Below, piece after piece: positions 1 through 11,600 of a stretch of DNA of 53,498 bases; the stretch's first letter is position 1, and each line of letters opens with the position of its first letter. A program made the translations under genes and the position numbers. The stretch is from a virus, in IMG/VR virus record IMGVR_UViG_3300046820_000692, positions 1-53,498 of that record, one strand, 5' to 3'. The notes under the pieces were generated by a model. That model did not search any database. It saw only the letters and a program-made list of their open reading frames with translations, and was not told the origin of the DNA.

Positions 1-104
1 AGAGACTAGGGACACTACGGTGAGCCCAAAGCATCCTCCACTTACAATAAAAGTAAGTGATGATATAGTCCGACCCTTATGGAAACATAAGTAAAATGTG
101 ATAG
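1..104 (+). ncRNA. Group I self-splicing intron, 3' part (5' part lies outside the window)
   Basis: The sequence folds like the 3' half of a phage group I intron core. GACTA (4-8) pairs with TAGTC (66-70) as P7, inside the typical S-element string GATATAGTC. CACTTAC (39-45) pairs with GTAAGTG (53-59) as P8. CTTATG (76-81) pairs with CATAAG (86-91) around a GAAA tetraloop as a P9 hairpin. The intron is inferred to end at G104 (omega-G), because translation from 105 resumes exactly at Pro of the uracil-DNA glycosylase DPYH motif, while the codon before it is TAG. The Asp codon of DPYH (GAT or GAC) would end the upstream exon, which fits the U that normally ends a group I 5' exon. The 5' half, P1 and any homing endonuclease ORF lie beyond the window edge. 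Confidence 0.85.
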
Positions 105-8600: not shown

Positions 8601-11600
8601 TTGCTCAACGATCTTTTTAAATTCTGTTAATCCGATCTCTTCGTTTACTGTTGCTATGTCTCTGTTGATTCTTTCTTCAATAGCTGCATGATACATGGCA
8701 AGCATTGACTTTCCAGAGATAGTAGTCTCCTTCAAAAAGTTTCTAGGATCTTCTTCCATACCAGCATTTAAGAAGTATATGTTAGAAGGATCTACGTTAG
8801 CAATAGCATTCTTCTTTGCTTGTCTATTGAATATTGCAGTTAGCTCTTTCTTAGATTCTGGGATGATTTGTGGGAATCTAAGTTTACTTGTATCATGAGT
8901 AGCAAGAACAATATCAGTTAGGCTTCCTGGTACATGCTGACCTTTTGCATCTAGCTTTGTTTTAAAGTCGTACACATTAGCAACTAATGTTTTCTTAGCA
9001 GAAAGAGCATGTGCTACTGATATTTTAGGAAGACCTGTATTTGCATATGGACTGCCAATCTCCAAAGGATTCATTTCCAATCTTTGTCTTAAGTCGTCAA
9101 GGATTGGGAATCTTTCTGTGTGTTCTTTTAATGCTACGAAGTAAGCAGTTTTATGAGTTTCAGCAACAGTAACTCCACTTACATTTTTTAAATCTTCAAA
9201 GTAAGGTTTCATAGGAAGTACAGGCACATGATCTCCAATAGATGCTCCTGGAGGAAGTTTCTTTGCATATTGTGCAAGACCTTCTTCACTCATAGGAACT
9301 CTAGGCCCATAGATAAATCTTCCTGTTTTATTATAGTTAAGGTAAGCATCTTCATGATACTCTTTCCATAACCCACGTCCTTGCATTATACTTCTATAAA
9401 AATCCATAGAGATTATTGCAAAAGCATTTGTCTCTTCAAATTCACCTGGATTATATCCGTATAAATCTTTAAGATCTTCTTCAGTATAAAGTCTTTGACC
9501 TTTAGAGTTTACCATGTTTCTTAAAGTGTTCACAGTTCTTGACACATAGTCTTGAGCTGCTTCTTTAATTGCTTGAGTAATATCTAATCTAGGGTCTAAG
9601 AATGTAAAGTCAGTAAAAGTAGGATCGGCTCCATAAGATTCTGACATCCATGTAACTTTGTTCCCTGCCTCTTTAGCTGATAGTGTATTTTTAATTCCCA
9701 ATTTTACCCCAGGAGTAGAAAGCAATCTTTGACGTTTTGTAAAGTCATCATTGTTTTTAAACAATGCTCTGTTACCTCTAGTCATTTTGATTATCTCATT
9801 TCTTCCTAAGTCTTCGTGAACTAAAAAGTCTTTCATCATTTTTACCATTGCTTCTCTTCTAGACTCTCTGGTAATTCCTTTTCCTTTATCTACTAATGTT
9901 CCCCACTTCTGCAAATCTTTCTTTCCAATTTCTAACCCTCTATCAGCCTCTAATATTTTATCAGCTAGAGATTCTGCCATGTTGTTGTAAAATTTACCCA
10001 AGTCAGCAGTCATTCTCTTCAACTCGATTTCATACAGCTTTAAAGTTTTATCTAAAGGAATATTGTTCTTCTTGTATTCAAGATATCTTTTAGTCTCTCC
10101 TGACATTTTTTTAATTACACCGTCAGTCTTTAAGACTACGTCTGTAACAATTCTTTCATTGTTCTCGTAGATACCGTCAAACTGCATGTACTCACTTGAG
10201 ATACCTCTATTAGCTCCAGATGTATATCCTTCTAATTTTACTGCATTAGGATCATCAATGATCTGTTGAGCTTTATCTATACGTAAAAAGTCTTCTAAGA
10301 TTCCTCTTTGAAATACTTCAGCATAGCTTTTAAGATTTAAATTAGGATCGTCATGCCCTTTGATTCTAGGCATAGGTAAGAAGTCTGTACTAGTTCTATC
10401 TCCTGCTGCAGGGATTACTACTTTACAATATTTCTTATCTCCATTGTTTAGATACTCTTGAATTCTAGCTAACACAGCTGTTATTTCATCAAAGTCTTCA
10501 TAATCTGTTGCATCGTCGTGACGATCTTTAACAGCATCTACAGTAGGTACTTTAAAATTTTGTGCAAACTCTGGGTTGTGAAGCAAGTGTCTAAACAAAT
10601 GGCTTAACCCTAGCTCGTTGCTGTATACAAAAACATCTTGTTTATAAAATTGCAAAGCATCTGTACCATTCTTTTCAATATCTCTTTTAATATTCTGAAC
10701 AATATCATCCAAAGGTCTGGTTAAGTTGGTAGGATTCATTAATGAACCTGTAGCACTTACAAAACTTTCTGACGTTTTACTTAAAAATAATGGAGTAAGT
10801 TCTGATAAAAATTTAACCCCTGATCCTTCAATATCAAAATAAGGAATAACTGGAGCAGGTGAATTTCCAAATGTAAGTTGATTCTTTAAAACAGAAAAGT
10901 TTACTACTCCTTTACGTACCATTGAGAATAAACTACCATTAGTTACAATGTAATCGTACAAGTCTTTACCATCTCTTAGTACTGTCTTGGATTTTGTTTT
11001 TACATAGATACCCTTGTCAATAATGTTTTGTAGATTTTTGATAGTATCTTGTATATCAGATTTGTTACCTAGGTTCATACCTAACTCCCAAATCAAACTT
11101 GCTAAACTAATTACTGCTCTAGACGGAGTCCCATCTTCATTTGATTTAAATCTTACTTGTTCTTTAGAAGATATTGCAGATTGTACTCTTTCAAGAGCAA
11201 CTTTAATTCTTTCTACTTTTGCTTTTTTAAGACTGAATGTAGCTATCTCAGACTCTTCATCAAAGTTCTTTACATACAAAGCTCTATTTAATTCTGAAGT
11301 ATCATACTCTTGGCCCCCTACTTCCACTGCTTGCTCTCTCCATTGAGATGCAAGTTTAGACTGTGTTGTTAGGGTATTGGCATTTATTACTTTAGAATCT
11401 TCCCCAAGTATAATTAAATCAAAGTCTCGTATTGTATTAGAGAATGCACTGAACAAAAGTGCTCTATCATCAGCAGGTAATGTGTCAATTTTTGTACTAA
11501 TAGATAGGTAGTCTGGACGATGTCTTGCATAGTTCTTCAACTTTATCTCCATATCTATGAAGTCTTGAGAATCTGCCCACAACTCTAAAAGCTGCTTATA

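Follow-up and report, generated by a model that had tools for sequence, protein, structure and literature searches.

A group I intron within the active-site motif of a crAss-like phage uracil-DNA glycosylase gene, with signs of spread by homing

The DNA analyzed here (the window) is an entire viral fragment of 53,498 nucleotides (nt), IMG/VR record IMGVR_UViG_3300046820_000692 (G000), whose base 1 is a contig end. Its first 104 nt (+ strand) are the 3' part of a group I intron, cut by that contig end, which lies in the gene for uracil-DNA glycosylase (UDG). With a probability of about 0.92, in our judgment, a mobile, group IA-like, self-splicing intron interrupts the UDG gene of a crAss-like phage between the Asp and Pro codons of the motif GQD/PYH, and spreads among such genes by homing with exon co-conversion.

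The Intron and Its Insertion Site

In a covariance search against Rfam, window 1-104 gave a 5'-truncated match to the group I intron model RF00028 (1-92, + strand, 29.9 bits; E=1.1e-5 when 700 nt were searched and 8.7e-4 for the whole window). An earlier note on this DNA, made from the letters alone, had recommended such a search and had drawn P7, P8 and a GAAA-capped P9 in this region; all three stand exactly where it put them. P7 is formed by GACTA (4-8) and TAGTC (66-70), the latter within the conserved GATATAGTC; P8 (39-59) by CACTTAC (39-45) and GTAAGTG (53-59); and P9 (76-91) by CTTATG (76-81) and CATAAG (86-91) around the GAAA loop, all on the + strand. Two elements had been overlooked: (i) a hairpin between the intron tail and the exon (97-103/108-114), described below; and (ii) P7.1 (9-27, + strand, GGG-A-CAC-UACG-GUG-A-GCCC), with pairs 9-11/25-27 and 13-15/20-22. 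Extra stems between P7 and P3, P7.1 and also P7.2, characterize group IA and, by this predicted P7.1, the intron is group IA-like.

Folded alone, 1-104 reproduces P7, P7.1, P8 and P9 (-23.2 kcal/mol, z -2.75), and 2 of 200 shuffles fold equally well. In an alignment of 13 distinct sequences, these four helices are paired in 100% of cells; P7 is invariant and the other three show double changes, namely one compensatory change from G-C to A-U in P7.1 (locus L051), 4 of the 7 pairs of P8 and 2 of the 6 pairs of P9. For the whole structure, including the tail hairpin, 11 double-change pairs were counted versus 3.7 in shuffles, none of which (0/500) scored as high. Regarding the catalytic core, P7, P8 and P9 are seen in the window and P3-P6 only in relatives.

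Directly after an in-frame TAG (102-104), UDG exon 2 (105-653, + strand; 182 codons, from PYHNG to the stop) opens with PYHNGAATGLAFGV, which bears out the earlier claim that translation resumes at PYH from 105; its product matches Pfam PF03167 above the cut-off (31.4 bits). A protein search for a contig carrying exon 1 and the 5' half of the intron found only six intronless relatives, in whose records an Rfam scan gave no intron above threshold. In all six, GQD runs directly into PYHNG, giving the UDG motif GQDPYH as GQDPYHNG: L001 and L002, about 96% identical to the window in nt over exon 2, read GGGCAGGAT followed at once by CCATATCACAATGG, and the other four have GGGCAAGAT, GGGCAGGAT, GGCCAGGAC and GGTCAAGAT preceding PYHNG. 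The window and these relatives diverge exactly at 104/105; therefore, the intron lies between Asp and Pro of GQD/PYH and ends with G104 (the omega-G), both as originally proposed. The Asp of the GQD motif activates the attacking water. The expected upstream exon ending in GQD is present in the six intronless relatives (in L001, exon 1 ends with CAGGAT) and, as CAGGAT, in eight intron-bearing loci, but the window's own is off the contig and cannot be read, because the window is the whole IMG/VR fragment. The window's terminase is 40-42% identical to those of cr52_1, cr113_1 and others, and by it the host is classified here as a crAss-like phage.

Related Introns in Other Phages

A 20-mer covering P7-P7.1, used as a probe, was found in 17 other viral contigs; 10 of these 17 loci were scanned and gave full-length RF00028 matches (62-95 bits). 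With a pattern joining the intron end to a PYP-type UDG exon, the same codon boundary proved to be occupied by a related intron in at least 14 other viral contigs, both exons being visible in eight of the 14 (seven distinct alleles). In these eight loci: (i) exon 1 ends with GG[T/A/G]CAGGAT; (ii) the intron is 798-1028 nt long and has an in-frame stop at its start; (iii) P1 pairs exon CAGGAU with the guide GUCCUG over 6-7 base pairs (bp), the 5' splice site following a U paired to G; and (iv) P10 has 4 bp in 8/8 and covaries with the Pro codon (ACGG/CCGT, AAGG/CCTT and ATGG/CCAT). The open reading frames (ORFs) in the P1 loop match LAGLIDADG_2 in L033 and L039 (112-115 bits), and that of L030 is HNH/endonuclease-VII-like (PHROG endonuclease match, 111.6 bits).

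The 3' domain of the window intron is up to 91% identical to those of this 14-contig lineage. The PYP-type UDGs of the intron-bearing loci, in turn, share only 28-35% identity with the crAss-type UDG, and the terminase of L034's contig, the sole comparable one, is 28% identical to the window's. Such similar introns suggest that the element has moved horizontally, at a homologous site, from one divergent phage to another, and we regard the intron as a member of a mobile lineage specialised for the UDG Asp/Pro site. A pattern joining the intron end to PYH gave 14 viral matches, none of them in UDG; a broader pattern gave 20 matches in bacterial and archaeal genomes and three extra viral ones, all due to chance.

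Relatives of the window intron occur in other contexts as well. In L046 (IMGVR_UViG_3300042879_000255, reverse strand), a related intron with its core near 10640 lies roughly nine codons further downstream in UDG, at a second site between ACAGGAT and TAGCCTTC (TG-L-AFGV). By eye, its P1 reads GGAU/GUCC and its P10 reads UAGC/GCUA, and its ORF matches Endonuclease_7 (75.7 bits); at least two intron sites thus seem to exist in UDG. In a 102-kb viral contig (L041, 805-1389), a relative of the window intron (1178-1389) overlaps the end of a transfer-messenger RNA (tmRNA)-like gene (RF00023, 805-1205, 32.4 bits, E=1.8e-9, below the cut-off), and a tmRNA-like context was also noticed by eye in L031, L037 and L045. 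Introns in tmRNA genes are already known.

Mobility and the Exon Co-conversion Footprint

Of the two marks of a homing intron, one is seen at the site, which is polymorphic for the presence of the intron; the other, an endonuclease ORF, is seen in the relatives, whereas any such ORF of the window copy would be off the contig. Among the 80 viral UDG loci nearest to a PYP-type query, 70 are intronless, 2 intron-bearing and 8 unresolved. Intronless L080 and intron-bearing L030 are nearly identical and form a natural plus/minus pair; the L030 allele was also seen in L043, which comes from another metagenome. Upstream, L030 and L080 differ near the site by a single base, at -4 (CAG in L030, CAA in L080); in exon 2, nine third-codon differences, all synonymous, lie between +3 and +30 and recode 9 of 10 codons; the next differences are found 382 nt upstream and 485 nt downstream. 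Exon co-conversion is expected from homing (PMC2988022, review), and we read this tract, on its sequence pattern, as the scar that homing predicts. The converted bases belong to those by which P1 (CAG), P10 (CCG) and the tail pairing fit. Across loci, the exon 1 CAG codon is present in 8/8 intron-bearing versus 16/67 intronless ones (Fisher 4e-5, or 1.4e-4 if the two loci with identical alleles count as one).

A Probable Hairpin Spanning the 3' Splice Site

In the window, the intron tail UGUGAUA (97-103) is fully complementary to the exon bases UAUCACA (108-114); the resulting hairpin (97-114, + strand; -7.1 kcal/mol) has G104 and CCA, on either side of the splice site, as its loop. At PYP-type loci, tails such as GGGUA, GGAUA and similar pair with their own UAYCC exons; the partners are the last approximately 7 bases of the intron and exon 2 bases +4 to +10, and the pairing tracks each host exon. 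Across the 13 distinct sequences, this helix alone is paired in 86.8% of cells, 10 cells being changed on both sides, with a covariation score of 0.308 versus 0.168 in shuffles (0/500); slid registers are 37-45% paired. Tail pairing with the own exon averages 6.8 bp versus 4.9 with permuted exons (p ~1e-4); all these controls leave some relatedness in place. A match of at least 7 bp occurs at 1.3% of window positions and, by the same measure, the T4 td intron and the second-site UDG intron of L046 pair over 1 bp.

The helix is probably real, and its function might be to present the 3' splice site or to act as a clamp. With somewhat less than even confidence, we suggest that it is an extra pairing outside the standard P1-P10, with the splice site in its loop beside P10, and that, because the tail's pairing partner lies in the exon, the intron retains it by taking along some 30 bp of synonymously recoded exon at homing. 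The mobile unit would then be the intron plus an exon collar, which could also protect the exon of the carrier against nicking by an HNH endonuclease.

Proposed Mechanism and Alternative Explanations

The RNA is predicted to excise itself, with P1 joining the internal guide sequence GUCCUG to exon CAGGAU, P10 pairing the NGG adjoining the guide with exon CCN, and omega-G104 setting the 3' splice site. In the window phage, the guide sequence to the left of base 1 would be ATGGGTCCTG; the exon side of P10 would be CCAU (105-108, + strand), whose predicted partner in the missing internal guide sequence is AUGG, as in L039 and L048 (ATGG/CCAT). The joined mRNA would encode an intact UDG; unspliced RNA would stop just past Asp, because all related introns with a visible 5' end begin with an in-frame stop. 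UDG genes lacking the intron would be cut by a P1-loop endonuclease, which in relatives is LAGLIDADG or HNH/endonuclease-VII-like, and repair would copy, besides the intron itself, a few exon 1 bases and some 30 exon 2 bases. Through these co-copied bases, the intron would arrive with the partners that its splice-site pairings need, in the form of synonymous changes. Splicing, endonuclease activity and the missing 5' half of the window copy are all, in this scheme, predictions.

Several points weigh against it: (i) this copy's upstream exon, guide sequence and any endonuclease are all off the contig; (ii) the fragment's 29.9 bits are below the Rfam gathering score of 50 bits, as expected because its 5' half is off the contig; (iii) the window carries no footprint, since its first 101 exon 2 bases (105-205) are identical to those of intronless L001 and L002 (about 96% identity beyond them), an identity that is suggestive only and may reflect co-conversion or simple constraint; (iv) which of the L030 and L080 alleles is ancestral, and hence the direction of the change, is presumed from the comparison; and (v) the window copy may be degenerate and non-splicing.

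A rival reading is a dead remnant, whose 3' half persists by UDG after deletion of the 5' half, UDG being broken in the window phage. We consider this improbable: although just the 3' 104 bases are visible, in a contig that ends inside the intron, all the 3' elements are intact and covary with the relatives, exon 2 is open and resembles functional-looking intronless alleles at the identity given above, and the tail-exon match, which decay should erode, still spans 7 bp. Slightly less probable again is a chimeric assembly joining the end of another phage's UDG intron to the exon 2 of the window phage. Introns are indeed highly alike across phages (up to the 91% mentioned) and assemblies break at shared sequence, but no intron copy among those compared is identical over the 104 nt, and no other viral contig contains the exact 30-mer taken from the window's P7-P9 part. 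Moreover, the window tail matches its own PYHN exon along 7 bp, against just 3-4 bp for PYP exons; as the tail fits its own exon best, the two halves belong together. Finally, chance folds with a coincidental PYH restart, or another type of insertion, might be invoked for a sub-threshold fragment, but are in practice refuted by the E-value, the complete homologous introns at the same codon and the covariation.

Neighboring Genes

Further along the window (1101-31341, - strand), there is a run of giant ORFs of 1499, 2514, 2356, 778, 1280 and 1628 amino acids; the 1628-aa ORF matches a PHROG virion structural protein, and the 1499-aa ORF gave no match in PHROGs.

Significance and Comparison With Known Systems

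A mobile intron at this site has several implications: (i) UDG is added to the phage genes invaded by group I introns (DNA polymerase, ribonucleotide reductase, thymidylate synthase and terminase), again at catalytic codons; (ii) one codon boundary has been repeatedly invaded in divergent UDG types, with at least two endonuclease families; (iii) given the recurrence and the near-isogenic plus/minus pair, natural phage intron homing can be read directly from sequence; and (iv) the exon-tracking 3' hairpin raises the question of how introns stay functional after jumps between divergent genes.

The earlier note had considered a UDG site unusual. This holds insofar as we found no literature report of a phage UDG gene carrying a group I intron, nor of a tail-exon hairpin, which is weak evidence of novelty for both as most subscription journals were not covered; but the site is recurrent (14 further contigs) and not a one-off. 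In any case, a phage group I intron is an element of an ordinary kind, here at a catalytically central site of a host gene for which no report was found, and it is the exon-tracking hairpin and the synonymous exon scar that are unexpected and lift it above the routine.

The group IA introns of T4 td and nrdB are alike in residing in a phage DNA-metabolism gene, in their ATATAGTC P7 strand, in their intron-encoded endonuclease and in homing with exon co-conversion (PMC2988022), but they differ in gene and site, and td lacks the tail-exon hairpin. The crAss-like phages, the same phage order, have many group I introns in core genes, UDG being listed as a gene but not as an intron-bearing one (Yutin et al., 2021, PMC7886860). 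The nearest named relative of the intron core, in Dulem virus 41 (PP511520; 78.6% over 94% of a 174-nt core query), lies in another gene, in the polymerase/primase region. Lastly, fungal mitochondrial mobile introns show raised polymorphism at exon boundaries (Repar and Warnecke, 2017, PMC5378118), and their diversity is concentrated at exon edges as in L030/L080; but those introns are organellar, whereas here a single phage pair displays a 30-nt, wholly synonymous tract.
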